Assembly (NCBI GenBank): GCA_017640505.1
Contig: JAEPQO010000003.1
Location: 434,001-498,000 of the forward strand
Source: Rhodospirillales bacterium
GTDB lineage: Bacteria; Pseudomonadota; Alphaproteobacteria; Rhodospirillales; Casp-alpha2
Direction of reading: 5' to 3'
Length of the DNA: 64,000 nt
In this document: positions 936-15,045 of the stretch, piece by piece
How the letters are laid out: each line of letters opens with the position of its first letter
Position numbering within the stretch: position 1 is the first letter of the stretch
Notes under the pieces: model-generated
Told to the model about the DNA's origin: nothing
What the model saw: the letters and a program-made list of their open reading frames with translations, nothing else
Database searches by the model: none
Program-made: the position numbers and the translations under genes

Positions 936-1709
936 TCAGAATGGGAAGATGATATCCCAGACCTGCGTGCCCCAGCGCGGCTGCTGCAAGCTGCTCAGTG
1001 TGCCGCGGCCGCCGTAGGCAACGCGCATTTCTGCAATTTTTTCATGACTGATCGTGTTGTCGCTCTCGATATCCTCGGGGCGGACGACACCGGTAACCAT
1101 CAGTTCGCGAAGTTCCGCGTTGACGAGAATTTCCTGGCGCCCCATCACGACCAGCGAGCCGTTCGGCAGGATCTGCGTGACCACGGCCGCGAAGGTGAGG
1201 TCGATCGTTTCCGACCGTTCGATATCGCCTTCGCCGTTGGTGGCGTGAACGTTGTTGAAGCTCATCAACGATTCCGGATTCACCGCAGCGGCGGCGCCGG
1301 GAATGATATTGGCGAATTTGGTCTCCAGGCCGAGAATGTTGGTGACGTTCGTGTCTTCGCTGTCGTTGCGGTCGCGCTCCGTCGAATTCTCGAGTGTGGC
1401 ACTGTCGGACAGATCCAGTTTCACGGTCACGATGTCCCCGATTTCCTTGGCGCGGTGGTCCTTGAAGAAGGCCCGCGCCCCGTTACGCCATAACGAGCTC
1501 GGGTTCTCCTCCGCGACCTGCGGGGCCGGCATCGGCAGGCTGACCGGCCGGTAGTCCGGTTTCGCCGTCGGGTTCTCGATCGTCGTCAGGTTCGGACCGG
1601 TGCCGACATCGGACAGGCGCGTTGCCAGATTGCACCCGCTCAGGCTCGTGACGGCGACAACAGCGGCAATAATCGGAAGGCTGCGCTTTTTGCTGTTTGC
1701 GGTAATCAT
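936..1709 (-). CDS. flgH: Flagellar L-ring protein FlgH
   Basis: FlgH forms the outer-membrane L-ring that acts as a bushing for the flagellar rod. The 257-residue product starts with a lipoprotein signal: basic MITANSKKRS, a hydrophobic stretch, then lipobox LSGC with the lipidated Cys near residue 26. Typical FlgH motifs follow, including SLWRNGARAFFKDHRAKEIGD, the start of the ring domain and the ILPNGSLVVMGRQEILVN strand region near residue 180, and a C-terminal GTLSSLQQPRWGTQVWDI. Length is normal for the family. It is 48 bases downstream of the truncated flgA and should share its transcript. That upstream part is lost at the junction near 2020, so its native promoter may be missing. Confidence 0.96.
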   Translation of the reverse strand: MITANSKKRSLPIIAAVVAVTSLSGCNLATRLSDVGTGPNLTTIENPTAKPDYRPVSLPMPAPQVAEENPSSLWRNGARAFFKDHRAKEIGDIVTVKLDLSDSATLENSTERDRNDSEDTNVTNILGLETKFANIIPGAAAAVNPESLMSFNNVHATNGEGDIERSETIDLTFAAVVTQILPNGSLVVMGRQEILVNAELRELMVTGVVRPEDIESDNTISHEKIAEMRVAYGGRGTLSSLQQPRWGTQVWDIIFPF

Positions 1710-1757: not shown

Positions 1758-2042
1758 CTAGTTGAGGCTCATCGAGAGCTGTTGCGACAAGGACTTCACG
1801 GCAACTCGGCCGGGACCGATCACTTCGGCTTCGACGATCTGGTTCGAACGGCCGTTCTTGATCTGCACGATGTCGCCGTCCGCACCATCCTGCATTGCCT
1901 TGCCCTGTGCCGTCAGGATCATGTTCGGCACCTGGTGAATGATCGTGACGAGGCTGTTCTTCTCTACCAGCACGGGGCGTGTGACGTCGTTGTTGCGGAT
2001 CGGATAGCCAGCGCGGATACCGGCAATGCTGTCCGTGTTCAA
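1758..2042 (-). pseudogene. flgA: FlgA (P-ring assembly chaperone), C-terminal remnant
   Basis: FlgA is the periplasmic chaperone for P-ring assembly. Only the C-terminal SAF-like part is present: GIRAGYPIRNNDVTRPVLVE, KNSLVTIIHQVPNMILTAQG and a terminal GRVAVKSLSQQL. Family members are usually about 140-330 residues and begin with a signal peptide; here at most 94 codons are open. FlgA-like sequence runs out near 2020, where fliM-like sequence on the opposite strand begins. The first usable start is a TTG at 2042 and an in-frame stop lies at 2061-2063, so no signal peptide can be made. This is a 5'-truncated gene, either from a genuine deletion or an assembly join. It lies just upstream of flgH on the same strand. 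Confidence 0.85.
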
Positions 2043-2715
2043 GGCAGAGGAGTGGGATAACTATGGTCTGATAACGGTCGACAGTTCGCTGATTTACTCA
2101 ATCGTCGACGTTCTGCTGGGCGGGCGCCGGGGCACTGCGGCGATGCGTATCGAGGGCCGTCCCTATACGACGATCGAGCGCTCGCTTGTCGAACGCATGG
2201 TGCACGTCATGCTGGGCGACCTGTCGGCTGCTTTCGAGCCGCTGAGCCCGGTCACGTTCCGCTTCGACCGGTTGGAAACCAACCCGCGTTTCGCGACGAT
2301 CTCCAGACCGTCGAACGCGGCCATCGTGGCGCGTCTCAGGATCGACATGGAAGACCGCGGCGGCCGCCTCGAGCTGCTGTTGCCGTATGCAACGCTGGAG
2401 CCGGTTCGTGAACTTCTGCTGCAGATGTTCATGGGTGAAAAGTTCGGTCGCGACACCATCTGGGAAACGCACCTTGCCGAGGAACTCTGGGTGACGGACG
2501 TCGATCTCGAAGCCGTCATCGATACGCAGATCATGAAGCTGCGTGATGTGTTCGACCTCAAGGTCGGATCGCAGATTATGCTGAGCGCGACACAGGACAG
2601 CCCGGTGCAACTCGTCTGCGGCGATGTGCCGATGTACACGGGCCGAATGGGCCGCAAAGGAAGCCGGATCGCCGTCAAGATCGGCGACCGGATCGACAAG
2701 ACGCCGCGCGGATAG
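2026..2715 (+). pseudogene. fliM: Flagellar motor switch protein FliM, N-terminally truncated
   Basis: FliM is the C-ring switch protein that binds CheY-P and FliG. The 229-residue frame starts inside the middle domain: MLSVFKAEEWDNYGLITVD, then SSLIYSIVDVLLGGRRGT, and continues through LVERMVHVMLGDLSAAF to the SpoA-like C-terminal domain (about residues 150-225: AVIDTQIMKLRDVFDLKVGS). Full FliM is usually 320-380 residues. The missing part holds the CheY-binding N-terminal peptide and the start of the CheC-like domain. Fliм-type sequence can be read a few codons before the ATG (IPA at 2017-2025), then stops at TAG 2005-2007. No ribosome-binding site precedes the ATG. Upstream sequence is flgA on the other strand, so the gene is cut at the junction. 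Confidence 0.88.
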
Positions 2716-2749: not shown

Positions 2750-3244
2750 ATGCCTTATACCCTGATCGTTGATATCGCCGTCGCCGTGCTGCTGGTGGTG
2801 ACCATCGGTTACGCCGTGACGCTCAACAAGCGTCTTAACCGGTTGCGCAAGGACAAGAAGGATCTGGAAAGTCTCGCCCGGACGTTCGGCGAGTCGACGC
2901 AGCGCGCGGAAGAGAACCTCAATCAGCTGCGTACCGTGGCGCAGGCGCTCGACATCCAGATGGAGCGTGCGCAGACGCTGCGCGACGATATCGCGTTTCT
3001 CGCCGACCGCGGCGGTTCGACGGCGGACCGGCTGGAAGAACTGGTGCGCGAGGCGCGGGACGGTCTCGGTGTGGTGCCGAAGCCGGCGTCGGCGAACATC
3101 GCACAGTCACAACCGCGCAAGGCCCCCAAGGTCGAGCCGCGTGACGAACCGGCAGACGTTGCCCAGAAGGATGGTGACGGTGGCATCGAGCCGCGCTCCG
3201 AAGCCGAACGCGAACTGTTGCGCGCGCTGCGCGACGCCGGCTGA
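2750..3244 (+). CDS. DUF6468-type flagellar-cluster membrane protein
   Basis: The 164-residue product has one N-terminal membrane helix (residues about 4-24, TLIVDIAVAVLLVVTIGYAV). A basic NKRLNRLRKDKKD stretch and a long coiled coil (about 35-110) follow, then a Pro/Lys/Asp-rich linker and a short terminal helix (SEAERELLRALRDAG). The pattern matches small uncharacterised proteins found between fliM and motE in Rhodospirillales-type clusters. It starts 34 bases after the fliM stop and ends 21 bases before motE, so it is in the same operon. The function is unknown; the topology suggests a cytoplasmic coiled coil anchored to the inner membrane near the motor. Confidence 0.75.
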   Translation: MPYTLIVDIAVAVLLVVTIGYAVTLNKRLNRLRKDKKDLESLARTFGESTQRAEENLNQLRTVAQALDIQMERAQTLRDDIAFLADRGGSTADRLEELVREARDGLGVVPKPASANIAQSQPRKAPKVEPRDEPADVAQKDGDGGIEPRSEAERELLRALRDAG

Positions 3245-3265
3245 TACTGAGATGCGAGAGAACGC

Positions 3266-3991
3266 ATGAAAAAGCTCTTTTCGAAAATTCGTTTCCTGCC
3301 GCTGACGATCTTCGCCGCGACGCTGATGCTGACGATCAGGGTCGGCGACATCTGGGAAGGGATCGACTCCCTGATGGAAGGCACGATCAATATTTCCGAA
3401 GCCCGTGCGCAGACGGAACAGCCTGACGCGGCGCCGACTGCAGGCCCGGCGACCGAAGAGGCATCCAGCATGCCGGCGGTCGAACCGGTGCCGGGCGAAC
3501 CTGTCGAAGGCGCGACGACGGTGCGCCAGGATCCGACCAAACTGATTACCGATGATCCGACCCTGCTGACGCCGGCGGAGATCGAAATCCTGATGAGGCT
3601 GGCCGAGCGCCGTGACGAGCTCGCTGCCAAGTCGCGCGAACTGGAAGCCCGGGAAGGTCTGCTGCGTGCCGCGGAAATCCGGATCGAACGCCGCGTTGCC
3701 GAGCTTGAAGACCTGCGCGGTGTTATCGAGGAACGCATCAAGGTGTTTGATGAGCAGCAGGAGAAGAAACTCGGCAGCCTGGTCAAGATCTACGAGAACA
3801 TGAAGCCGAAGGATGCCGCGCGCATCTTCGAGGAACTGGAGATGAATACCCTGCTCGAGGTCGCTGAACGCATGAAAGAACGTAAGCTCGCGCCGGTGAT
3901 GGCGCAGATGAATCCGGAGCGTGCGCGCGAGGTGACGGTCGAATTGCGGGTGCTGCGTGAACTGCCGCGGGCCGTGGGCACGCTGCAGTAG
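3266..3991 (+). CDS. motE: MotE family flagellar motor protein
   Basis: The 241-residue product has an N-terminal signal or anchor (MKKLFSKIRFLPLTIFAATL), then an acidic Pro/Ala-rich linker (about 45-100). A long coiled coil follows (about 105-170, with LAERRDELAAKSRELEAREG). The C-terminal domain resembles the MgtE N-terminal/FliG-like fold: YENMKPKDAARIFEELEMNT and MAQMNPERAREVTVEL. In rhizobia MotE is a periplasmic chaperone for the MotC stator-associated protein. Here it lies in the operon with DUF6468 and two MotB-like genes. Homology to the MotE family is clear from the MKPKDAARIFE motif; the exact role outside rhizobia is inferred. Confidence 0.85.
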   Translation: MKKLFSKIRFLPLTIFAATLMLTIRVGDIWEGIDSLMEGTINISEARAQTEQPDAAPTAGPATEEASSMPAVEPVPGEPVEGATTVRQDPTKLITDDPTLLTPAEIEILMRLAERRDELAAKSRELEAREGLLRAAEIRIERRVAELEDLRGVIEERIKVFDEQQEKKLGSLVKIYENMKPKDAARIFEELEMNTLLEVAERMKERKLAPVMAQMNPERAREVTVELRVLRELPRAVGTLQ

Positions 3992-4006
3992 GGACAAAGG
4001 GACATG

Positions 4007-4059
4007 CCGGGCAGCAAGGTGTTGCCCGGAATGATCGGATTTTCAGGCGAAAATCCGAT
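4007..4059 (+). promoter_or_regulatory. Two tandem hairpins between motE and cheY
   Basis: The first stem pairs 4007-4013 (CCGGGCA) with 4023-4029 around nine bases. The second pairs 4034-4044 with 4049-4059, a perfect 11-bp stem with a four-base loop. Neither is followed by a T tract, so they are not ordinary terminators. They lie in the 139-base gap before the cheY-like start codon and could stabilise transcript ends or tune expression. Confidence 0.5.
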
Positions 4060-4130
4060 TGGGACACCGGGAAAATGGGGTTTCGGGATGTACGTTCCGA
4101 AGCGGACATATCTGGATTTTGGGAGTGGAA

Positions 4131-4517
4131 ATGGCCGTGGACGTGGGCATGAAAGTCCTGATCGTGGACGACTACCCGACCATGCTCAAGGTCCTGAAGT
4201 CCCTGCTCAGACAACTGAAGTTCACCAATATCTCCGAGGCGAGCAACGCCAAGGATGCGCTTTCCATGCTACGGGAAGGCGGTTTCGGGCTGGTCATCTC
4301 GGATTGGAACATGGAGCCGATGAGCGGCTACGAGTTGTTGCAGGAAGTGCGCGCGGACGATGCCTTGAAGGACCTGCCGTTCATCCTTGTCACGGCGGAA
4401 AGCACGACCGAAAAAGTGATCGCGGCCAAACAGGCCGGTGTGTCGAATTACATCATCAAGCCATACACGGCGGGAACGCTGAAGACCAAGCTGGTCAGCG
4501 TCCTGGGCGAATTCTGA
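4131..4517 (+). CDS. cheY: CheY-like chemotaxis response regulator
   Basis: This is a single receiver domain of 128 residues. It shows the acidic pair in KVLIVDDYPTMLK, the phosphoacceptor Asp in GLVISDWNMEPMSGYELL, the conserved Thr in ILVTAES and the Lys in NYIIKPYTAGTLK. No output domain is present, which fits CheY, the phospho-signal that binds FliM. The ATG at 4131 is chosen because GGGAGTGG precedes it at 4121-4128 and the domain starts within a few residues; a longer frame from 4059 would add an unrelated 24-residue leader. It is 13 bases before the first MotB-like gene. Its usual target site on FliM (the N-terminal peptide) is in the part of FliM missing from this window. Confidence 0.92.
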   Translation: MAVDVGMKVLIVDDYPTMLKVLKSLLRQLKFTNISEASNAKDALSMLREGGFGLVISDWNMEPMSGYELLQEVRADDALKDLPFILVTAESTTEKVIAAKQAGVSNYIIKPYTAGTLKTKLVSVLGEF

Positions 4518-4530
4518 GCGGGGCACGGTA

Positions 4531-5271
4531 ATGACGATACGTGATCTCGATCTTGAGTTGCCGCCACAGGAGCCTGAGCAGGCGCCGGATATCGTGCCGG
4601 TATTCCTCGGTCTGTTTTTGCTGGTGCTCGCATTTTTTATCATGCTGGTGTCAATATCGACGTTCGAGCAGGTCAAGTCGACGGCGGTCATGGACAGTCT
4701 GTCGTCGACCTTTACGACGGTGCTGCCGCCGACCTCGGACCCCACCGAATTCAATGCCAAGGACGGCGATATCATTGCCGGCGAAGCGTTCCAGGAACAG
4801 GTGACCACCATTTTCACCACGGCGGTGCAGGTCGAGAAGATCGAGGTCGTGCAGCCGGGCCGATTGATGCGGCTGCATATGCCGGCAAGTGCGCTGTTCA
4901 AGGCAGAGGAAGCGACTGTCCGCGACGATCAGCTGCCGTTGCTGGATCGCGTGGTGGCGGCACTGTCGAACAGGCCGCCGGGATTGCGCCAGGACATGGA
5001 AATCGTGATCGGTGCGCCGCCCACCGGGAATGAATACCTGCCGTTGCAGCAAACGATCGAAACCGCCCGCATGGGTGAGATCGCGCGTGTTCTGACAGGT
5101 CGGGGCGCACCGCCGGACAGCGTGTCGGTGGGCGTCAAAAGCGGTGATGTTGGTAATATCTCCATCTGGTTCTGGGTCAGGGGCATCGAGGAAACGGAGG
5201 TTCGTTTCGAAGAAGCGCTGGAGGAGATGCGCAAGCGCACCGCGCCCGAAGCATCGGGAGGCCAGCCGTGA
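4531..5271 (+). CDS. MotB-like membrane protein lacking the stator aspartate
   Basis: The 246-residue product has one N-terminal membrane helix (about 22-42, VPVFLGLFLLVLAFFIMLVS) and a periplasmic region with OmpA/MotB-like features (LMRLHMPASALFKAEEATVR, DQLPLLDRVVAALSN). Aligned by eye to the next gene product, the proton-carrying Asp of MotB is replaced by Gly27 (FLGLFLLVLAFF against FTDLVSLLLTFF). It therefore probably cannot conduct protons alone. It may be a stator partner or a MotB paralogue with a structural role. Its stop overlaps the next start by four bases, so the two are probably made in fixed ratio. No motA gene is in the window. Confidence 0.75.
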   Translation: MTIRDLDLELPPQEPEQAPDIVPVFLGLFLLVLAFFIMLVSISTFEQVKSTAVMDSLSSTFTTVLPPTSDPTEFNAKDGDIIAGEAFQEQVTTIFTTAVQVEKIEVVQPGRLMRLHMPASALFKAEEATVRDDQLPLLDRVVAALSNRPPGLRQDMEIVIGAPPTGNEYLPLQQTIETARMGEIARVLTGRGAPPDSVSVGVKSGDVGNISIWFWVRGIEETEVRFEEALEEMRKRTAPEASGGQP

Positions 5272-5993
5272 GGCGGGATGCGACATTGGATCTCGACCAT
5301 GTCGAGGAACCGGAACACCGCAACACCAAGATGTGGATGCTGACATTCACCGACCTGGTGTCGCTGCTGCTCACGTTCTTCGTCATGCTGTTCGCAATGT
5401 CGAACGTGAAGATCGACGAATGGGACAAGGTTATCGACTCGCTGTCGCAGACCCTTAATCCCTCTCCGGAGGAAACCGTCCGTAAACCCACCGCGCAGTT
5501 GAACATCGGCACGCTTTTCTATCGCCGTGCCGTCAACCTGGATTACCTCGCTTCCGTGATCGAGGAAAACCTCTCCAATGACCCGTTGCTGCGTGACGTG
5601 CTGATCGTTCGTCTCGAGGACAGGCTGCTGGTCGCATTACCGGGCGACCTGCTCTTTGATCCCGGCGCCGCGGTTATCAGCGAACGCGCGCAGGGCGCTA
5701 TGCTGACGCTTGGTGCGATGTTCGACAATGTCGGCAATACGATTGCTGTTACCGGACACACGGACCCGGCGCCGCCGGACGGCACGTCCTATGCGTCCAA
5801 CTGGGAACTGTCGATTGCGCGGGCCGCTTCCGTTGCGAATGCCATCCGCCGAGGCGGTTACGACGAGAAGATCGTGGCTTTCGGTTACGCGGATACCCAG
5901 TACAACCTGCTGCCGAACCTGGATGACGCCGACCGGCGCAGACTGGCCCGGCGTGTCGATATCATTGTCATGCCGACGGCGAGGGCCTTCTGA
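5268..5993 (+). CDS. motB: MotB-family stator protein (OmpA-like)
   Basis: The 241-residue product has the MotB signature: a short cytoplasmic leader, then one membrane helix with the proton-binding Asp29 (WMLTFTDLVSLLLTFFVMLF). A plug-like segment follows (VKIDEWDKVIDSLSQTL), then a C-terminal OmpA-like peptidoglycan-binding domain (about 115-235) with VTGHTDPAP and NWELSIARAASVANAIRRGG. MotB anchors the stator and carries protons with MotA. MotA is not in the window. ATG 5268 overlaps the previous gene by four bases, and the stop overlaps the next start in TGATG. The gene symbol is given by family; orthology with a specific MotB paralogue is not tested. Confidence 0.85.
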   Translation: MRRDATLDLDHVEEPEHRNTKMWMLTFTDLVSLLLTFFVMLFAMSNVKIDEWDKVIDSLSQTLNPSPEETVRKPTAQLNIGTLFYRRAVNLDYLASVIEENLSNDPLLRDVLIVRLEDRLLVALPGDLLFDPGAAVISERAQGAMLTLGAMFDNVGNTIAVTGHTDPAPPDGTSYASNWELSIARAASVANAIRRGGYDEKIVAFGYADTQYNLLPNLDDADRRRLARRVDIIVMPTARAF

Positions 5994-8900
5994 TGCGGTG
6001 GAGCGGCTACAGACCGTTGCTGGCGGCATGCCTCGCCGTTGCGTGCCTCGGTGCCGTTGGCGACGCGAACGCGGAGCGGGTGTCGGTCAGGGTCGAGCAG
6101 TCGGGCAAGTCTTCGCTGATTACCTTTGCCTGGCAGGTCCCGGTTGCACACAAGCACAGTGTCGAGGACGGCCGCGTGACGGTTCGTTTCTCCCGTCCGA
6201 TCGAAGGCGATTTCGCCCGGCTTGCCGCCGAACTGCCGGACCTGATTGCGGACCCGGCCGCCGGCGCGGATGGACGTTCAGTCAGTTTCACGCTTCGCAA
6301 ACCGGTCGAGGTGTTTGCGTTCTATACCGGTACCGGTGTGACGGTCGAACTCTTCGACGACATTAAGACCGGCGCTCAATCCGCGAGCACGAACGCCGAC
6401 GGGCCGGTCGAGGTGCCGGTTGAACCGGTCACGGCGAGCCGGGTAAAAGCGTCTGCCCAGGCGACGCCTGCTGATGCGCCGGAGATTCGCGTGCGCACCG
6501 GTGAACATCCGGATTACACCCGTGTCGTTTTCGATTTCGAACAGGACGTTCCCTACCAGGTGAGCAATGACGGCGGCGTGGTGACGTTGCGCTTCCAGCA
6601 GCCGGCACGGATTTCGCTGGGCGCTCTGTCGGATGGCGGCGTGCGACTGATTGGCGGCGCGCGGACGGCCGTGAGCGGCAATGCGACGACGGTGACGTTG
6701 GCCGTGCCAGCGACATCGACGGTGCGGGATTTCCTGTCCGGCCCGAAAGTGGTGCTTGATGTGCGCGAGCCGAGCGGGGCTGCGGATCCGGTTGCGCTGC
6801 CGGCAGCGACGGCCGCCGTGGAACAGCCTGCGGCGCCGGCGCCTGAAACGGCGACGGAAGATGCGCCGCCGGCGCAAACTGTTCAACCCGTAGAGACCGT
6901 CGAACCGGCGCCGCCCGCCGCCCCGGAACCGGCCGCTGCGGCTGAGCCGGAAACGTCGGGTGCGCCGACACGACTGGAGGCCGCGCCCACTCAGGACACG
7001 GCAGAGACCGGCCAGCCGCGCGCTCTGACGCCGGATGGCACCCGACCTGCAGCGGCGGAAACGGCTGCGGCGCCGGAGACACCGGCAGCACCGTCGGCCG
7101 ATGACGATCAATTCTCGCAGGAGCTTTCACCGCGTGCGCAGGCCTCGGCCGGCGCGGGCGAGCCGACGGCGGCCAAAGTGTCCGCGACCCCCGGCCAGGA
7201 TCAGCTTGCGTTCCGCTTCGATTTCGACGAGCCGGTGGCGGCGGCAACGTTCCGCCGCGGCGGTGCAATCTGGATCGTCTTCGACAAGCCGATGACCGTT
7301 GATACGGCGGCGCTGCAGCTCGAAGCAGGCGAAGCCGCGTTCGAGATTCTCCAGCTGCCCAATGAAAACGCGACGGTGCTTCGGATCCGTACCTCGGCGC
7401 GCTACAATCCGGCGGTGAAACGGGACGGCCTGGCCTGGGAGATTGATTTCGCGCCAAGGCAGATGGCGCCGCAGGCAGGTCTCGAAGTGAACGCACAGCC
7501 CAATTCCCCGGTCGGTGCGCGGGTCTTTGTTCCCGTGCCCGAACCGGGCCGTCCGATTGCCGTTGCCGACCCGAACATCGGCGACAATTTCGTTGTCGTT
7601 CCAGTCATTCCGCTGGGCCACGCGGTGGGGCGGCCGTTCAGGTTCCCGCAGTTCAGCATCCAGATTGCGGCACAAGGCGTGGTCATTAATCCGATTATCG
7701 ACGATCTTCGTGTCCGCGCCCTTCGGCAGGGGATCGAGATCGGCAGTTCCGGTGTGCGCCTGGCCGTTACCAACGTGTCCGAAGACGCCGCCGCGCATGC
7801 GCAGCTCGCGGCAACCCGTACGATGGTGAAGGCCATCGAGGACCTTGAGCGCTACGCCGCCACCACGGAACAATTCCGCGTTCGCCGTCGTCAGCTGGAG
7901 GCCGCCATTGCGGATGCGCCGAAACGTGGCAAGGCCGCGGCGCGACTGGAACTCGCCAAGTTCTTCTTTGCCAATGCCTACGCGCCAGAAACGCTCGGTG
8001 TGCTACGTGTCGCGATTGAGGATGTGCCGCCGCTGGCAAACGACCCGTCCGTTCTCGTCATGCGTGGCGGTGCGCAGTTCCTGCTTGGCCGATACGACCT
8101 GGCGCTGGCGGATTTCAATCACGAAAGTCTGGCCGAGAACGACGAGGGGCGCCTTTGGGCGGCGGCGACGCGCGCCACGTTGGGCGACCGTATCGGCTCG
8201 GCCCGCGACCTTCGCTTTACCGGCTCTATCGCTCGCGACTATCCGCGGGCACTGAAGATGCCGCTCGGCATTCTCATCGCCGAGGTCGCGGCGGAAACCG
8301 GTGACGGACAGGGCGCGAAACTGTTCCTGGATGCGCTGAACCTCGAAAACCCGACCAAGGGTGAGCAGGCCATGCTCCAGTTCGCCGAGGGCAAGCTCCG
8401 GGAACTCGACGGCGATTTCGACGGTGCCATTGGGTTGTGGGAAGACGTGCTTGAGAGCGATCATCGGCCGTCGCGGGCGCGGGCCCGTGTCGCCCGCACC
8501 GAGATGCTGTTGAAGCTGCGCCGGATCGACCTGCGCGACGCGATCGAGGAATACGAGAAACTGCGCTTTGCGTGGCGTGGCGATAAGCTGGAGTTCGACA
8601 ACCTGCGGCGCCTGGGCTCGCTCTACCTCGACGAGGGTTTCTTCCGGGAAGGGCTTTCCACGCTGAAAGAAGCGGCAACGCATTTTCGGGATTTCGAAGA
8701 TGCACCGGAAATTACCAAGCAGATGAGCGACACGTTCAACACGCTTTTCCTTGGCAACGAGGCCGATGTCCTCGATCCGGTCAAGGCAATCGCGATCTAC
8801 AACGAATTCAAGGAACTGACCCCGGCCGGTGCGAGAGGGGACGAAATGATCCGCAATCTCGCCGACAAGCTGGTCGAGGTCGACCTGCTCGACCGTGCCG

Positions 8901-9535
8901 CCGAACTTCTGAAAGCACAGGTTCAGTTCCGGCTGGTCGGCGAGCAGAAGGCACGGGTCGGTGCGCGCCTTGCACTTATATATGTGTTGGCCGAGAAGTA
9001 TCAGCCCGCGCTCGAGGTGTTGCAGGGAACCGACGAGCCCAACATCCCGGCGGAACTGGCAGCGCAGCGGCGGCACCTGCGGGCGCAGGTTCTGACGGGG
9101 CTGAAACGTTCGGGCGATGCGCTGGCGCTTCTTGAAGACGACGAAAGCGAGAATGCCGAATTGCTGCGCATGGAAGTGTTCTGGAAGAACGCGAATTGGC
9201 GCGATGCTGCGAAATCACTCAGGCTGTTGGTTAAACTGTCCGGTGCCAAGCCGGATGAACCGGTCGACGATGTTCAGGCGACACGTATCATCAACTACGT
9301 GATTGCGCTGACGAATGCCGGTGGTGAACGCGCCGTCAGCCAGATCCGGCGCGAGTACGGCCCGGCCATGGCGGGCACCAAGTTTGCGGAAGCCTTCGAC
9401 CTGGTAACGGCACCGGCCGCAATCGGCACGTTGCCGCCCGAAGGGGTGCCGGCAAAAGTTCAGGAAGCGGAGACGTTCCTGACGGCGTATCGGGACAAAC
9501 TCAAGGACGGGGTGCCGCTGTCGTCGCTGAACTGA
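5993..9535 (+). CDS. Large exported AMIN-like/TPR protein of the flagellar cluster
   Basis: The 1180-residue product is not assigned to a named family. A signal peptide covers residues 1-27 (LLAACLAVACLGAVGDANA). Two beta-rich segments follow (about 30-125 and 160-260, the second with PDYTRVVFDFEQDVPYQV), which look like AMIN domains. Next is an Ala/Pro/Glu/Thr-rich linker (about 265-395), a third similar beta segment (about 400-490, QDQLAFRFDFDEPVAAATFR), and from about 620 to 1140 a helical TPR-like array (RLELAKFFFANAYAPETLGV, FLLGRYDLALADFNHESLAE). AMIN domains usually target envelope structures; TPRs bind proteins. It starts inside the stop of the MotB gene and is last in the operon, so an envelope scaffold for the motor is plausible. 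Confidence 0.8.
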   Translation: MRWSGYRPLLAACLAVACLGAVGDANAERVSVRVEQSGKSSLITFAWQVPVAHKHSVEDGRVTVRFSRPIEGDFARLAAELPDLIADPAAGADGRSVSFTLRKPVEVFAFYTGTGVTVELFDDIKTGAQSASTNADGPVEVPVEPVTASRVKASAQATPADAPEIRVRTGEHPDYTRVVFDFEQDVPYQVSNDGGVVTLRFQQPARISLGALSDGGVRLIGGARTAVSGNATTVTLAVPATSTVRDFLSGPKVVLDVREPSGAADPVALPAATAAVEQPAAPAPETATEDAPPAQTVQPVETVEPAPPAAPEPAAAAEPETSGAPTRLEAAPTQDTAETGQPRALTPDGTRPAAAETAAAPETPAAPSADDDQFSQELSPRAQASAGAGEPTAAKVSATPGQDQLAFRFDFDEPVAAATFRRGGAIWIVFDKPMTVDTAALQLEAGEAAFEILQLPNENATVLRIRTSARYNPAVKRDGLAWEIDFAPRQMAPQAGLEVNAQPNSPVGARVFVPVPEPGRPIAVADPNIGDNFVVVPVIPLGHAVGRPFRFPQFSIQIAAQGVVINPIIDDLRVRALRQGIEIGSSGVRLAVTNVSEDAAAHAQLAATRTMVKAIEDLERYAATTEQFRVRRRQLEAAIADAPKRGKAAARLELAKFFFANAYAPETLGVLRVAIEDVPPLANDPSVLVMRGGAQFLLGRYDLALADFNHESLAENDEGRLWAAATRATLGDRIGSARDLRFTGSIARDYPRALKMPLGILIAEVAAETGDGQGAKLFLDALNLENPTKGEQAMLQFAEGKLRELDGDFDGAIGLWEDVLESDHRPSRARARVARTEMLLKLRRIDLRDAIEEYEKLRFAWRGDKLEFDNLRRLGSLYLDEGFFREGLSTLKEAATHFRDFEDAPEITKQMSDTFNTLFLGNEADVLDPVKAIAIYNEFKELTPAGARGDEMIRNLADKLVEVDLLDRAAELLKAQVQFRLVGEQKARVGARLALIYVLAEKYQPALEVLQGTDEPNIPAELAAQRRHLRAQVLTGLKRSGDALALLEDDESENAELLRMEVFWKNANWRDAAKSLRLLVKLSGAKPDEPVDDVQATRIINYVIALTNAGGERAVSQIRREYGPAMAGTKFAEAFDLVTAPAAIGTLPPEGVPAKVQEAETFLTAYRDKLKDGVPLSSLN

Positions 9536-9550
9536 CGTGCACCGGCGACG

Positions 9551-10309
9551 CTAGCCGCCGAAGCTTTGTACCAGCGATCCGACGATGATGTACCAGCCGT
9601 CGACCAGCACGAAAAAGATGATCTTGAACGGCAACGCGATGATGATCGGCGGCAGCATCATCATGCCCATGGCCATCAGCACGGACGCCACGACCATGTC
9701 GATAATCAGAAACGGCACGAAGATCAGGAAGCCGATCTCAAAGGCGCGTCTGAGTTCGGAAATCATGAACGCCGGTATAAGCACCCGCATCGGCATCTGA
9801 TCGCGTGCTTCCTCGACGCTTGTACCGCTGATATCGACGAACAATTCCAGATCCTGTTCCCGGACATGGCGCAACATGAAGGCGCGGAACGGCTGAACCG
9901 AACGCTCAAAGGCATCGAACTCGTCGATCTGCCCGGCGATCAACGGTTCGATGCCGTTGTCGTACACCTGTTCGAACGTCGGCATCATGATGAAGAACGT
10001 GACGAACATGGCGAGGCTGACCAGCACCTGGTTCGGCGGCGTCTGCTGCGTGCCCATGGCGGTTCTGAGGAACGACAGGACGACAATGATGCGCACGAAC
10101 GACGTCACCATGATCAGGATCGACGGCGCCAGCGACAGGATCGTGATCAGGGCAACGAGCTGGACGATCCGTGCTGTTGCATCGCCGCCACCGGGGCCAA
10201 GGTCGAGGCTGAATGTCTGCGCAACCGCATCCCCGGCGCCGAACAGCACGGCGATTGTAAGGGCGGCGGCACTGATGCCGTACGTGAGTATGAACGTCCT
10301 CAGCTTCAT
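9551..10309 (-). CDS. fliP: Flagellar type III export gate protein FliP
   Basis: FliP, with FliQ and FliR, forms the core of the flagellar export gate. The 252-residue product has a cleavable-type leader (about 1-30), then characteristic FliP segments: SILIMVTSFVRIIVVLSFLR, TAMGTQQTPPNQVLVSLAMF, LIPAFMISELRRAFEIGFLI and FLIIDMVVASVLMAMGMMML. Length and order are normal. It overlaps fliO by four bases (ATGA) on the minus strand and ends 15 bases from the end of the convergent TPR gene. The order fhlB-like, small protein, fliO, fliP on this strand suggests one operon. Confidence 0.98.
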   Translation of the reverse strand: MKLRTFILTYGISAAALTIAVLFGAGDAVAQTFSLDLGPGGGDATARIVQLVALITILSLAPSILIMVTSFVRIIVVLSFLRTAMGTQQTPPNQVLVSLAMFVTFFIMMPTFEQVYDNGIEPLIAGQIDEFDAFERSVQPFRAFMLRHVREQDLELFVDISGTSVEEARDQMPMRVLIPAFMISELRRAFEIGFLIFVPFLIIDMVVASVLMAMGMMMLPPIIIALPFKIIFFVLVDGWYIIVGSLVQSFGG

Positions 10310-10650
10310 TGGTCCTCAGCTCCGGTCCCGGATGTTTCGTCACGGGCGGCCGTTTCGTCGAGGACCTGCCTGAAGTCGACACCGTCGCGGATGTTGCTTT
10401 CGACGACGAGTTCGGTGGTCGGACTGATTACAAGGAGGTGTTCGACATCGTCTCGGCGGACCAGGACGAGTTTGCGGCGCGAATCCAGCGGCGCGACCTC
10501 GACAACACCGATCCTGCGCTCACCTGAGGGCCGGATCGCATTGACCGGAAAGCCGAAACCGAGGCGGCGAAAGATGACGGCGAATACGCCGATCAACGCG
10601 ATCACGAAGATCAGCGCCAGAACGAAGCGAAGGTAACCGTCCATACCCAT
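10306..10650 (-). CDS. fliO: Flagellar export protein FliO
   Basis: FliO is a small membrane protein that helps assemble the FliP ring. The 114-residue product has one N-terminal membrane helix (LRFVLALIFVIALIGVFAVI), a short linker, then a beta-rich cytoplasmic domain (ERRIGVVEVAPLDSRRKLVL, VRRDDVEHLLVI) typical of FliO/FliZ-like domains, and a disordered acidic tail. The start MGMDG at 10650 has a second in-frame ATG two codons later; either could be used. It overlaps fliP by four bases. Confidence 0.9.
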   Translation of the reverse strand: MGMDGYLRFVLALIFVIALIGVFAVIFRRLGFGFPVNAIRPSGERRIGVVEVAPLDSRRKLVLVRRDDVEHLLVISPTTELVVESNIRDGVDFRQVLDETAARDETSGTGAEDQ

Positions 10651-10668
10651 TGATTTGACCGGCCTTGA

Positions 10669-10941
10669 TTATTGTTCCGTGCGTGCCTGCGCCTGTATCG
10701 CTTCGCTGAGCGCGCCGAGCCGCTGTACCAAATGCTGGATCGCGATCGTCACGGCCTGCGGGTCCTCGGGCGGAGTCTCCGCGAGACGGCGGCAAAGATC
10801 GGCAATCGGTTCTTCCAGATTCGTAAGGTCGATCTGATTGCCTTCCCGGATCAATTCGTGGCCGCTTTCGACGAGCTTGGTGAGGTCCTCGATCTCGGCC
10901 ATGTAGTCGGGAGTCGCGCCGTTTTCCGGGGTGTCGCTCAT
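10669..10941 (-). CDS. Small helical hypothetical protein in the fliOP operon
   Basis: The 90-residue acidic product is predicted all-helical, with no signal or membrane segment: DYMAEIEDLTKLVESGHELI, then DLTNLEEPIADLCRRLAETP, then VTIAIQHLVQRLGALSEAIQ. The family is not recognised. Its size, charge and position just before fliO suggest a cytoplasmic flagellar chaperone or export accessory, but no motif proves this. It starts at ATG 10941 and lies 18 bases from fliO and 30 bases after the FlhB-like gene. Confidence 0.65.
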   Translation of the reverse strand: MSDTPENGATPDYMAEIEDLTKLVESGHELIREGNQIDLTNLEEPIADLCRRLAETPPEDPQAVTIAIQHLVQRLGALSEAIQAQARTEQ

Positions 10942-10971
10942 AGTTTCGTTCCTTTGTAACCAGTCGCAACC

Positions 10972-11292
10972 CTAGCGGTTGCGCTTCGCCCAATCCTGCG
11001 TCGGTGGCGCATCGTTGCTGCCCGCCTCGGTATTGGCAAGATATACGTACCTTAATATTTCAGCGACGGCCGTGAACGCTTCGACCGGAATTTCACTGTC
11101 GATGTCGATCGCCGAGAGCAGTTCCGCCAGATCCGCGTCCTCGCGCACCTTGATTCCGTGCGCGAAAGCGAGAGCGAGAATTTGCTCAGCCACCGTGCCG
11201 CGACCAGCGGCGACGACCTTCGGTGCGCGTCCGTCATCTTGTTCCTTGAGCGCGACGGACACCGCGCGTTCCGTCGGTGGCGGCGGTTTCAT
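10972..11292 (-). CDS. FlhB C-terminal-domain-like protein (EscU/YscU/FhlB family)
   Basis: The 106-residue product resembles the cytoplasmic autocleavage domain of FlhB without its membrane part: TERAVSVALKEQDDGRAPKV, VAAGRGTVAEQILALAFAHG, IKVREDADLAELLSAIDIDSE and PVEAFTAVAEILRYVYLAN. The NPTH cleavage motif seen in full FlhB is not present; AAGRG stands near that position. Small FlhB-like (FhlB/YlqH) proteins occur beside flagellar genes and can partly replace the FlhB C-terminal domain. The start at 11292 is chosen because the domain begins there; a longer frame to 11457 adds a Pro/Arg-rich leader. No clear ribosome-binding site is seen for either. A full flhB is at 13975. Confidence 0.8.
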   Translation of the reverse strand: MKPPPPTERAVSVALKEQDDGRAPKVVAAGRGTVAEQILALAFAHGIKVREDADLAELLSAIDIDSEIPVEAFTAVAEILRYVYLANTEAGSNDAPPTQDWAKRNR

Positions 11293-11461
11293 GTTGTTTT
11301 GCGTCAGATCGTCGGTGCGTCCCAACCGCGCCTCCCCAATCCGCGACAGACATGACCTCATTCCGCGCGGCCAAGCCTTTCGCAAGGCTAACCTTCGCCG
11401 GTCCGGTTTAACAAACCATAAATCCCGGGGCGGAGCCGGGAAAAGCGGCAGCGGCATATAT

Positions 11462-11490
11462 CGTTAACAAAGATTCACCACTTGTTAACG
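11462..11490. promoter_or_regulatory. Inverted repeat with two GTTAAC cores before flgB
   Basis: CGTTAACAA (11462-11470) and TTGTTAACG (11482-11490) are perfect inverted copies with an 11-base spacer. The site is 100 bases before flgB and in the divergent region facing the fliOP operon. The TTAA cores recall CtrA half-sites, but spacing is not the standard TTAA-N7-TTAA. It may be an operator for the flagellar operons. Confidence 0.45.
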
Positions 11491-11589
11491 AAACCCGGCA
11501 GATAATGCCCATCAGGAAATCGGCGGGAAATTCCGCCGGAAAACCCCGATGGGGTTCGGGAACGGGACGCGGTTGAAGGGACGCCGGGT

Positions 11590-11994
11590 ATGGATCTGAA
11601 CAAAACGGCCCTGTTTGGAGCGATCAAGGGACGCCTCAGCTGGCTTTCGCAGCGGCAGGAAGTGCTTGCCCAGAACATCGCCAACGCGGATACGCCGCGC
11701 TATCGTGCATCGGACCTTAAGCCCTTTGAATTCAAAGAAATTCTGCGCCAGGAAAAGATTCAACTGAACATGAACGTGACCGATGCGTCGCATCAGCCCG
11801 GTCGTCGCAAACGTATTCGGGACTTTGCGGAGCAGACGGAACGCCAGCCTTTCGAAACCTCGCCGACCGGGAACTCGGTCGTGCTCGAGGAGCAGATGGC
11901 AAAAGTCAACGAGACGCACACCAAGCACAAACTGGTGACGCAGTTGTACAGGAAACACCTGTCGATGATCTCCGCGGCCGTCAGGTCGCGCTGA
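11590..11994 (+). CDS. flgB: Flagellar proximal rod protein FlgB
   Basis: FlgB forms part of the proximal rod. The 134-residue product has the FlgB/rod N-terminal helix and motif LSWLSQRQEVLAQNIANADT followed by PRYRASDLKPFEF. The C-terminal helix includes VLEEQMAKVNETHTKHKLVT, typical of this protein. ATG 11590 follows GAAGGGACGCCGGGT. It is the first gene of flgB-flgC-fliE-fliQ-fliR-flhB, all on the plus strand. flgC starts 17 bases later. Confidence 0.97.
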   Translation: MDLNKTALFGAIKGRLSWLSQRQEVLAQNIANADTPRYRASDLKPFEFKEILRQEKIQLNMNVTDASHQPGRRKRIRDFAEQTERQPFETSPTGNSVVLEEQMAKVNETHTKHKLVTQLYRKHLSMISAAVRSR

Positions 11995-12011
11995 GCTGGA
12001 CGAGGTTTGAT

Positions 12012-12422
12012 ATGGACGATCTTCTTAAAACATTTGCGATCTCTGGCGCCGGTATGCGGGTTCAGGGAGCACGCCTTCGGGTGATCTCGCAGAACATCGC
12101 CAACGCGGATTCCCTGCCGCAGGACCCGAACGGAAAGCCTTACCGCCGCAAAACCATCACGTTCCGCAATGAGCTGGACCGTGCGGTCGGCCTCGACACC
12201 GTGCGTGTCAACAAGGTTCGCCCCGATATGTCCGAGTTCGGCCGCCGCTATGAGCCGAGCCACCCCGCCGCAGACGCCGACGGCTACGTGCTGACGCCGA
12301 ACGTCAACCGGCTGGTGGAAATGACCGATATGCGCGAAGCGCAGCGGTCCTACGAAGCAAACCTTAACGTGATCAAATCGTCGCGCTCTATGCTGATGAG
12401 CACGATCGAAGTGCTGAAATAA
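12012..12422 (+). CDS. flgC: Flagellar proximal rod protein FlgC
   Basis: FlgC is the partner of FlgB in the proximal rod. The 136-residue product shows the rod signature RVISQNIANADSLPQDPNGK, the PYRRKTITF segment, and the C-terminal ANLNVIKSSRSMLMSTIEVL helix with the preceding VNRLVEMTDMREAQRSYE. Length is standard. It sits between flgB and fliE. Confidence 0.97.
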   Translation: MDDLLKTFAISGAGMRVQGARLRVISQNIANADSLPQDPNGKPYRRKTITFRNELDRAVGLDTVRVNKVRPDMSEFGRRYEPSHPAADADGYVLTPNVNRLVEMTDMREAQRSYEANLNVIKSSRSMLMSTIEVLK

Positions 12423-12504
12423 CGAATAAGGCCGGAGAAAACGGTCTCCAGAACAAGGCGCCGGCCGAGAAGCTGTCAGGCGAACCTGGAACGGGAACTG
12501 AGAA

Positions 12505-12831
12505 ATGAGTAATCCATCTATGGGTTTCGCCAACGCGGTCCGGGCTTATGCCGACGTTGCCAACAACAACGCATTCGGCGGCAAACCGGCCAAGTCGGTC
12601 CCCGAAGCGGGCAATGACGATTTCGGTGCCCTGGTCCGGAGCGCAATCGACGAGGCGATCAAGATCGGCGAGAAGAGTGAAAAACTCTCGATCCAGGGCG
12701 TTAACGACCGCGCCGACCTGAACCAGGTCGTGACCGCTGTTGCGGAAGCCGAAGTCACGTTGCAGACTGTGGTGGCGGTGCGCGACAAGGTCATCGAAGC
12801 GTACAAAGACATCCTTCGTATGCCGATCTGA
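12505..12831 (+). CDS. fliE: Flagellar MS-ring/rod junction protein FliE
   Basis: FliE links the MS ring to the rod. The 108-residue product has a loose N-terminal region and the conserved C-terminal helices: DFGALVRSAIDEAIKIGEKS, IQGVNDRADLNQVVTAVAEA and EVTLQTVVAVRDKVIEAYKD ILRMPI at the end. Length is normal. It follows flgC by 82 bases and precedes fliQ by 75 bases. Confidence 0.96.
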   Translation: MSNPSMGFANAVRAYADVANNNAFGGKPAKSVPEAGNDDFGALVRSAIDEAIKIGEKSEKLSIQGVNDRADLNQVVTAVAEAEVTLQTVVAVRDKVIEAYKDILRMPI

Positions 12832-12906
12832 CGTTTTCTCCGGCCGCATCGATGTAACTGCGACCGGAGCCGCCGGCCGCCGGCAACGAACAGGCGGGGA
12901 TCGATC

Positions 12907-13179
12907 ATGAACGAAACCGCAGTCATGGAAATCGGGCGCGAGGCACTTTGGGTGGTGCTGATTACCGCGGGGCCGATCATGCTTGCTGGACTGCTCATCG
13001 GTCTTGCCATTGCGCTCTTCCAGGCGCTGACGACCATTCAGGAAATGACTCTCACATTCGTGCCGAAGATCATCGTGATCTTTGTCGCGATCATGGTGTT
13101 CCTTCCATTCATGATGACCGAGGTCGTCGAGTTCTCGCGCACATTGTTCGACAGGATAATTGCGCTAGGCGTGAACTAG
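12907..13179 (+). CDS. fliQ: Flagellar export gate protein FliQ
   Basis: FliQ is a small inner-membrane protein of the export gate. The 90-residue product has two membrane helices (about 15-38 and 50-75). It carries the conserved core LFQALTTIQEMTLTFVPKII between them. The start follows GCGGGGATCG. fliR follows after 13 bases. Confidence 0.97.
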   Translation: MNETAVMEIGREALWVVLITAGPIMLAGLLIGLAIALFQALTTIQEMTLTFVPKIIVIFVAIMVFLPFMMTEVVEFSRTLFDRIIALGVN

Positions 13180-13192
13180 GCGAGGACCCGCC

Positions 13193-13954
13193 GTGCTCCA
13201 GCAGTTTCTCGAAGTCAACATCTGGGTGCTGATTGTGATCATGGCCCGTGTCGGCACCGTGTTCTCGCTCATGCCGGGGTTCAGCGCAGGCTACATCTCG
13301 ACCCGTTTTCGCCTCAGTATGGCGCTCGCCGTGACCTTTATGCTGCTGCCGGTGCTTGCTGCCTATGTGCCGCCATTGCCGGTGAATGCTGTTGCGATGT
13401 TTCTCATCCTGGCAGGTGAAGTCATTATCGGCGCGTTTCTGGCATCGATCGGCATCTTCGTTATCTCGGCGCTACAGGCTGCGGGGACATTCATCGCTTA
13501 TTTCTCGTCCATGGCCAATGCCCTGATCCAGGATCCGGTCGCCAACCAGCAGAGTTCCGTTATTTCGGGGTTCCTGAGTACAGCGGCGCTGGTCGCCATC
13601 TTTGCCGCCGACCTGCACCATGTTGCGCTTCGTGCGGTAATCGACAGCTTTTCGCTTTTTCAGCCGGGCCAGCCAATTGCGTTCGGCGACATGTCGCAGA
13701 CGCTGGCGATCACGCTTTCCGACTCGTTTGCGTTGGGGCTCAAGATCGCGTCGCCGATGCTGCTGTCGGCGTTGGTCTATTATATCTCGCTCGGTATTCT
13801 CGGCCGCCTGATGCCGACCTTGCAGGTATTCTTCTTCGGGCTGCCGTTGCAGATCAGCATGCAGTTGTGGGTGCTGATGATTTGTTTCTCCGGTATGATG
13901 ATGGTGTTCCTACAGGCGTATTCGGATGCATACACACCGTTTTTGGCGCCCTGA
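13193..13954 (+). CDS. fliR: Flagellar export gate protein FliR
   Basis: FliR completes the FliPQR gate. The 253-residue product starts with GTG (13193), preceded by GAGGA. It has six or more membrane segments and FliR landmarks such as MARVGTVFSLMPGFSAGYIS, GEVIIGAFLASIGIFVISAL, QAAGTFIAYFSSMANALIQD and GRLMPTLQVFFFGLPLQI. Length is normal. It ends 20 bases before flhB. Confidence 0.97.
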   Translation: MLQQFLEVNIWVLIVIMARVGTVFSLMPGFSAGYISTRFRLSMALAVTFMLLPVLAAYVPPLPVNAVAMFLILAGEVIIGAFLASIGIFVISALQAAGTFIAYFSSMANALIQDPVANQQSSVISGFLSTAALVAIFAADLHHVALRAVIDSFSLFQPGQPIAFGDMSQTLAITLSDSFALGLKIASPMLLSALVYYISLGILGRLMPTLQVFFFGLPLQISMQLWVLMICFSGMMMVFLQAYSDAYTPFLAP

Positions 13955-13974
13955 ACAGTTGGTGAAAGCGCGAT

Positions 13975-15045
13975 ATGGCCGAAGAAGACGACGCACAAAA
14001 AACTGAGGACCCGACAGACAAAAAACTGTCGCGCGCCCGGGAAAAGGGACAGGTCGCGTCCTCGCAGGAGGTCAAGAGCTGGGTCGTGCTGTTGGCCGGT
14101 GCGGCCGGCATCGTTTTCATGTCGCCGATCATCGCCGACGATATCCGTGTGATCAGCATTCCCTACCTGGAGAATGTGCACGCCATCCCCTCCGATTTCG
14201 AGGGCATGCGCCACAATCTTATCGGTTCCGCGATCGAGGTCGGCCTGGCGGTGGCGCCGCTTTTCCTGCTGATCGTTCTTTTTGCATTGGCCGGCAACAT
14301 CATGCAGTTCGGGCTTTTGTTCGCGCCTGAGAAGGTCAAGCCGGACTTCGAAAAGGTCTCGCCGATGAAGGGCCTGAAGCGAATGTTCTCGATGCGCTCG
14401 GTGGTCGAGTTCGGCAAGGGCATCCTGAAGCTCGTCATCGTCTCTGCGGTGGCACTCGGCATCACGTTGCCGCTGATGCAGGACATTACGTTGATGCCGG
14501 GGTTCTCGATGGCGGCGATCATGGACCGGATCCTGAACATCGCCATCCTGCTGGCGGCGGGGACCATCGCCGTCATGACCGCAATCGCGGCGCTCGACTT
14601 CATGTTCCAGAAGTATCAGTTCACGAAGTCGATGCGGATGTCGAAGCAAGAGGTGAAAGACGAGCACAAGCAGTCGGAAGGCGACCCGCAGGTCAAAGCA
14701 CGTATCCGTTCCCTGCGCCAGCAACGCGCCCGCGAACGCATGATGGCGGCGGTGCCGGAAGCCGACGTCGTGATCACCAACCCGACCCACTATGCCGTCG
14801 CGCTGCAATACGAGATCGACGAGATGTCGGCGCCGCGTCTGGTCGCCAAAGGCGTCGACACGCTTGCCTTCAGAATTCGTGAAGTCGCCGAGGAGCACGA
14901 CATACCGATCGTCGAGAACCCGCCGCTTGCGCGGGCGCTTCATGCCAGCGTCGAAATCGACGAGGAAATTCCGCCAGAACACTTTGTCGCCGTGGCCGAA
15001 GTTATCGGTTACGTTATGCGTCTAAAGGGGAAAACTATCCATTAG
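13975..15045 (+). CDS. flhB: Flagellar export switch protein FlhB
   Basis: FlhB sets the export apparatus substrate specificity. The 356-residue product begins with the acidic/basic leader AEEDDAQKTEDPTDKKLSRA. Four membrane segments follow (about 30-210), then the cytoplasmic domain. The autocleavage motif NPTH is at residues 269-272 (VVITNPTHYAVALQYE). The tail contains APRLVAKGVDTLAFRIREVA and VAEVIGYVMRLKG, as in full FlhB proteins. It ends 13 bases before cckA, an adjacency seen in other Rhodospirillales-type genomes. Confidence 0.98.
   Translation: MAEEDDAQKTEDPTDKKLSRAREKGQVASSQEVKSWVVLLAGAAGIVFMSPIIADDIRVISIPYLENVHAIPSDFEGMRHNLIGSAIEVGLAVAPLFLLIVLFALAGNIMQFGLLFAPEKVKPDFEKVSPMKGLKRMFSMRSVVEFGKGILKLVIVSAVALGITLPLMQDITLMPGFSMAAIMDRILNIAILLAAGTIAVMTAIAALDFMFQKYQFTKSMRMSKQEVKDEHKQSEGDPQVKARIRSLRQQRARERMMAAVPEADVVITNPTHYAVALQYEIDEMSAPRLVAKGVDTLAFRIREVAEEHDIPIVENPPLARALHASVEIDEEIPPEHFVAVAEVIGYVMRLKGKTIH

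Follow-up and report, generated by a model that had tools for sequence, protein, structure and literature searches.

The flgA-fliM junction

The window, a stretch of 64,000 nucleotides (C6:434001-498000), belongs to an assembly of 3.95 Mb in 12 contigs that is 98.55% complete and 0.01% contaminated. Near its left end, both the sequence itself and the comparison with relatives place the last quarter of flgA, on the minus strand, directly against a fliM gene that lacks its first ~150 codons (Table 1). Our chief comparison genomes, both of the same genus, were G005, which is a single contig, and G003, which consists of about 30 contigs. Intact FlgA has 334 aa in both, and intact FliM has 378-380 aa. 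Among the 80 matches listed, the top relatives of FliM are metagenome assemblies labelled Proteobacteria, Rhodospirillales or Rhodospirillaceae.

Table 1 Features of the flgA-fliM locus and of the four deletion sites. Positions refer to the window unless preceded by C6.
Feature	Position	Strand	Details
flgH (L-ring protein), intact, adjoins scar on left	936..1709	-	PF02107 2-172 of 172; 257 aa (G003 257, G005 254)
flgA 3' remnant	1758..2022	-	About last quarter of 334 codons; ChapFlgA 48-122 of 122; flgA_cterm 62-136 of 137; frame 1758-2042 minus, 94 aa
Deletion junction (Del C)	2018..2022	.	TACCG here; partner sites of G003 and G005 both TGCCG; blastn breakpoints 2020-2022
fliM 3' remnant	2020..2715	+	Last ~229 of ~380 codons, open from ATG 2026; TIGR01397 100-319 of 320; PF02154 65-192 of 192 plus FliMN_C; frame 2026-2715 plus, 229 aa
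Surviving flagellar genes	2750..15045	.	DUF6468, MgtE_N-like, receiver, two MotB-like, FliP, a short protein like the FlhB C-terminus, FlgB, FlgC, FliE, FliQ, FliR, FlhB; all open, orthologs in G003 and G005
Survivors without Pfam match	5993-9535, 10306-10650, 10669-10941		Open frames, orthologs in G003 and G005
Del D	C6 418343-418346	.	7,975 bp of G003 absent; ~4 shared bases (read by eye)
Del A	C6 421295-421296	.	8,764 bp of G003 absent; ~2 shared bases (read by eye)
Del B	C6 424978-425049	.	52,489 bp of G003 absent; ~3 shared bases (read by eye)
Del C (flgA/fliM)	C6 436020-436022	.	3,813 bp of G003 absent

In blastn comparisons with either chief relative, the left piece ends at window position 2022 and the right piece starts at 2020, a 3-base overlap; in G005 the absent interval is also ~3.8 kb long. 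There, one strand carries the 5' part of fliM and fliL; the opposite strand carries flgF, flgG and most of flgA, and flgH follows beyond. A gap of ~3.8 kb appears at the same place against G002 and G007, both of which match the FliM profile over positions 4-192 of 192, and in G001 and G004, too, flgG, flgF, fliL and the 5' part of fliM lie on one contig. No FliM match was found in G006, the eighth genome of the genus, which is 65% complete. Judged by the genes of G003, the loss comprises FliL, FlgF and FlgG, as well as three quarters of FlgA and, at its N-terminal end, 40% of FliM. The lost part of FliM presumably includes the CheY-binding peptide, which we take to be N-terminal.

The initial annotation of this locus had proposed that flgA and fliM are cut at one junction, and the shared blastn breaks, together with the profile matches of the two fragments, bear this out. 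The gene order that it expected in intact clusters, flgH-flgA-flgG-flgF facing fliL-fliM, is indeed that of G005 and G003. Its deletion of roughly 3 kb measures 3.8 kb, and FlgA, said to have lost its start, is truncated to a larger extent than that. As for the proposed microhomology, a short-homology join is supported, but not one of ten bases, which reflected the overlap of two opposite-strand readings. When each side was aligned separately, CCG was found in the present DNA, and in each relative the two partner sites read TGCCG, so that the shared homology amounts to 3-5 bases.

Four probable deletions in the flagellar region

The rest of the cluster had been considered intact, which is wrong outside the window, where three larger tight deletions lie to the left. 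We compared all of C6 with all of contig C22 of G003, and the aligned part covers 338 kb (C6 207.6-545.7 kb). Within it, four tight gaps fall inside 17.7 kb of C6 (418343-436022), and together they correspond to ~73 kb as measured on G003. The flgA/fliM break is the smallest of these scars, and the other three (8.0, 8.8 and 52.5 kb on G003) are located 9-16 kb left of the window edge and 11-18 kb left of the junction. At Del B, 70 bases of the genome's own DNA separate the blastn pieces, and an ungapped comparison draws both sides close.

The genes of G003 also indicate what was lost at these sites. Del D took FliI, FliJ and other genes (GDSL-lipase-like, FAD-binding and others), and cut the C-terminal quarter of a 545-residue protein without Pfam match. 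Lost at Del A were FlhA, a sigma-54 activator with a weak receiver match, which we take to be FlbD/FleQ-like, MotA, FliN, FliH, FliG, most of FliF and ~23 residues of FlhF. Among the scanned genes, Del B cut the last ~15% from one FlgE-type protein and removed a second FlgE, FlgD, a FliK-like protein, FlgK and an FlgN-like protein, as well as flagellin, FlaF, an FlgL-like protein whose match is below the curated cut-off, a rod-binding protein, FlgI and NeuB. In C22 of G003, the Del B stretch holds a large block with NeuB between the hook genes and flagellin, plausibly concerned with flagellin glycosylation. Del A leaves an in-frame fusion, in which ~93 residues of the FliF N-terminus are joined to FlhF in a 399-residue open frame (L016:377-1576, minus strand; C6:420376-421575). 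Elsewhere in this part of C6, a 670-aa frame (L016:9387-11399, minus strand; C6:429386-431398) combines a fatty-acid hydroxylase domain with a solute-binding protein domain behind it and adjoins ABC transporter genes; its counterparts have 671 aa in G003 and 355 in G005.

G002, G003, G005 and G007 all have the DNA that is absent here at Del C. At each of the four sites, G005 has additional DNA, which comes to ~4 kb rather than 8 kb at Del D; G006 carries the Del D DNA (~6 kb) and the Del A DNA, and G002 the Del A DNA. As the missing DNA is thus present in several genomes of the genus, the window genome is the derived one. Over the aligned 338 kb, gaps of at most 100 bp on the C6 side that face at least 2 kb of G003 occur seven times, and four of the seven are the flagellar deletions. 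Tight gaps are thus not confined to the flagellar region: the remaining three lie outside it (near 212.8, 287.9 and 347.5 kb) and may be insertions in G003. The converse pattern, a tight gap on the G003 side, was seen at two places in aligned C6.

Two other origins of the gaps were rejected. A repeat-driven deletion finds no support at the paired ends, which share no exact word longer than 12 bases within 400 bp in G003 (the longest at the four joins have 10-12 bases), and a single large rearrangement is at odds with the flanking pieces, which hold their order across the four gaps. The junction 61-mer has a single occurrence in C6. The relatives' DNA is continuous across the site, the junction is tight with short homology, and the lost genes are absent elsewhere as far as their families were searched. 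The flgA/fliM junction is therefore very probably the scar of a real 3.8 kb short-homology deletion, one of four that removed flagellar genes.

Surviving genes

The survivors considered here are 22 flagellar genes or parts of genes, 5,354 codons in all. Every one is open, with lengths near those of their orthologs except for the four cut ones and for differences in start choice. The FliM remnant shows one own-only amino-acid change in 229. With G005 as outgroup, the survivors carry 324 own-only amino-acid changes versus 265 that are G003-only, and the corresponding numbers for 107 control genes (33,846 codons) are 1263 versus 1549. A gene-level permutation of the amino-acid changes gives p 0.0011; in its nonsynonymous/synonymous form, the test is weaker (p 0.041). 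When FlhF and FlgE are taken out, the survivors show 236 own-only versus 205 G003-only changes. It should be considered that the flagellar gene set was our own choice, and that seven genes whose flagellar role is unclear (C6 418180, 419579, 421739, 422145, 423716, 434488 and 449059) were left out of both sets.

These counts point to a slight relaxation of the surviving genes on their own branch, although the acceleration could have another lineage-specific cause. A recent loss predicts just such slight relaxation with frames that are still open, which matches the data. We thus infer that the flagellum was lost recently relative to the split from the sister species.

Besides the full FlhB at 13975-15045, a short protein at window 10972-11457 (minus strand) resembles only the C-terminal part of FlhB (PF01312 258-335 of 335).

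Flagellar content of the assembly

In profile searches of the whole assembly, FliM and FlgA gave one match each, and these are the two fragments; the search for full-length fliM and flgA that had been suggested thus recovered nothing but the remnants. FlhA had no match in the assembly, and seven of the eight genus genomes have one. A second flagellar system was rejected on the single FliM match and the lack of FlhA in the assembly. Flagellin, too, had no match in the assembly; its absence is weak evidence when taken alone, since only four of the eight genus genomes match, and G002, which is 93% complete and has a full FliM, also gave none. For Flg_bbr_C, the domain of rod and hook proteins, three matches were found here versus eight in each of G003, G004 and G005. 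The three are FlgC in the window, an FlgG paralogue on contig C4 and a weak match on C5, and a normal FlgG, a full hook protein and FlgK are not among them. The only FliL match in the assembly is on C4. FliF is reduced at its own locus to the N-terminus that is fused to FlhF, and FliG lies inside the missing 8.8 kb. The set expected of a functional flagellum (FlhA, FliF, FliG, rod, hook and flagellin) is not present, FliF and FliG being judged at their loci. By established knowledge of the missing parts, the organism, as predicted from its genome, cannot build a flagellum.

An assembly error, by which flagellar DNA that is present in the cell would have been dropped or misjoined at four places, seems quite unlikely. 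In two related assemblies, contigs stop within fliM (G001:C208/C209 and G004:C4/C271), which indicates that this conserved stretch can break assemblies, and at 98.55% completeness in 12 contigs the missing pieces could sit in unassembled DNA. Nonetheless, such an error fits poorly with four tight joins of ~2-5 shared bases that have no long common word at the paired ends, with the absence of the searched missing families from other contigs, with the lack of any N in C6 400001-440000, and with the mild relaxation of the survivors.

Still less probable, to a degree that we would call remote, is that the remnant (FliP, FliQ, FliR, FlhB and the cut FliM) was kept for another job, for example as a residual export channel. 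The open survivors and the nearly unchanged FliM remnant would suit such a role. However, with FlhA absent from the assembly, and with fliI, fliH, fliN, fliG and most of fliF in the missing stretches, the remaining parts would not suffice for any known type III export apparatus. In addition, the survivors as a group are accelerated on their own branch relative to the controls, and a recent loss accounts for their open frames without a new function.

A stand-alone FlgG-like gene (L015:9498-10280, plus strand; C4 1288782) and a FliL-like gene (L014:9160-9666, minus strand; C4 1504162) occur genus-wide, away from the flagellar cluster, and are retained despite the flagellum loss. The initial annotation had called for a genome search for flgG and fliL, and these are the genes that it returns; they are paralogues rather than the deleted genes. 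Their identity is 85-90% with the extra genes that G003 and G005 carry, and only ~60% (FlgG) and 30-35% (FliL) with the normal ones, and the surroundings of the C4-type paralogues are conserved, in G003 for both and in G005 for FliL. That the existence of these genes reflects a rearranged flagellum, with flgG and fliL moved to C4 and working from there, can practically be dismissed on these identities and on the presence of both normal and extra copies in G003 and G005. From these comparisons, the C4 genes are genus-wide paralogues and not moved copies; as the relatives carry them beside the normal genes, they do not refute the deletion.

Chemoreceptors

The assembly contains 13 matches to the chemoreceptor signalling domain on C4, C5, C6 and C7 (e.g., L067:4237-6381, minus strand; L173:14929-16686, plus strand; L224:3787-5625, plus strand), one of which is partial and lies in a frame of 154 residues, and the seven other genus genomes have 0-3 (G003 has 2, G005 has 0). 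Ten of the 13 receptors were scanned; all ten match the signalling domain and nine have a HAMP, PAS or other sensory domain. No CheW-domain match was found in the assembly, and hence no standard CheA or CheW; two of the eight genus genomes (G004 and G006) do have one. This absence supports the flagellum loss only weakly, since six of the eight, including the flagellated G003 and G005, lack a match. As G003 and G005 combine flagellar genes with few or no receptors and no CheW-domain match, a loss of CheA and CheW need not be connected with the loss of the flagellum. Many receptors with no CheW-domain match would mean either that this genome recently lost its kinase genes or that its receptors work with a different partner. 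When 34 kb of the G006 contig that carries the che genes were compared with C6 for a scar of the che locus, only short matches were obtained, at chemoreceptor loci and one receiver. One could imagine a lineage in which chemotactic swimming persisted until very recently and the flagellum then went in a burst of deletions concentrated on flagellar genes, with a dozen receptors kept that signal elsewhere without CheA and CheW; we regard this scenario as quite unlikely.

Probable flagellum loss in the organism and its family

A recent loss of motility, one of two readings offered by the initial annotation, remains the best in view of the four tight deletions, the open survivors and the missing families. 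We infer that the deletions, at least four in number, are biological and arose by illegitimate (short-homology) recombination after motility had stopped paying. At the junction, a 3.8 kb deletion with 3-5 bases of chance homology at its ends would have fused flgA to fliM, and flgG, flgF, fliL and the 5' part of fliM would have gone with it. Together, the four deletions would have removed the export gate FlhA, the export ATPase complex, most of the MS-ring protein, FliG and FliN, along with the distal rod, hook, P-ring and filament.

Flagellum loss seems to be recurrent in the family, as FlhA is missing in 9 of the 48 family genomes searched, including our own. If only genomes of at least 90% completeness and no more than 5% contamination are counted, it is missing in 4 of 23. 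In the Rhodobacterales, the fla1 cluster is reported to be absent in 7/50 genomes of clade 1, and figures of 8/35 and 3/50 are given for two further clades (PMC12363192). Our case resembles these independent, sporadic losses of flagellar clusters within flagellated clades of Alphaproteobacteria, but what is reported there is the absence of clusters, whereas here the loss is part-way, with four scars and many open leftovers (PMC12363192). In experimental evolution of Campylobacter jejuni, motility is reported to have been lost with gene deletion and genome reduction (PMC7677240). Motility loss is accompanied by gene loss in both cases, although the Campylobacter work was done in the laboratory and in an unrelated genus, and our loss is deduced from one genome (PMC7677240).

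Since flagella are often lost, this appears to be a rather ordinary, if clear, instance of recent gene loss and a good example of a known process, and ideas on how flagella work are unchanged by it. What it offers is a flagellum loss that appears to have been caught part-way, with clean deletions and open leftovers, in a genus where the flagellum is retained by the other well-covered members. In such genomes, the annotation of a single flagellar gene would wrongly predict motility, and the order and tempo of flagellum loss would become open to study.
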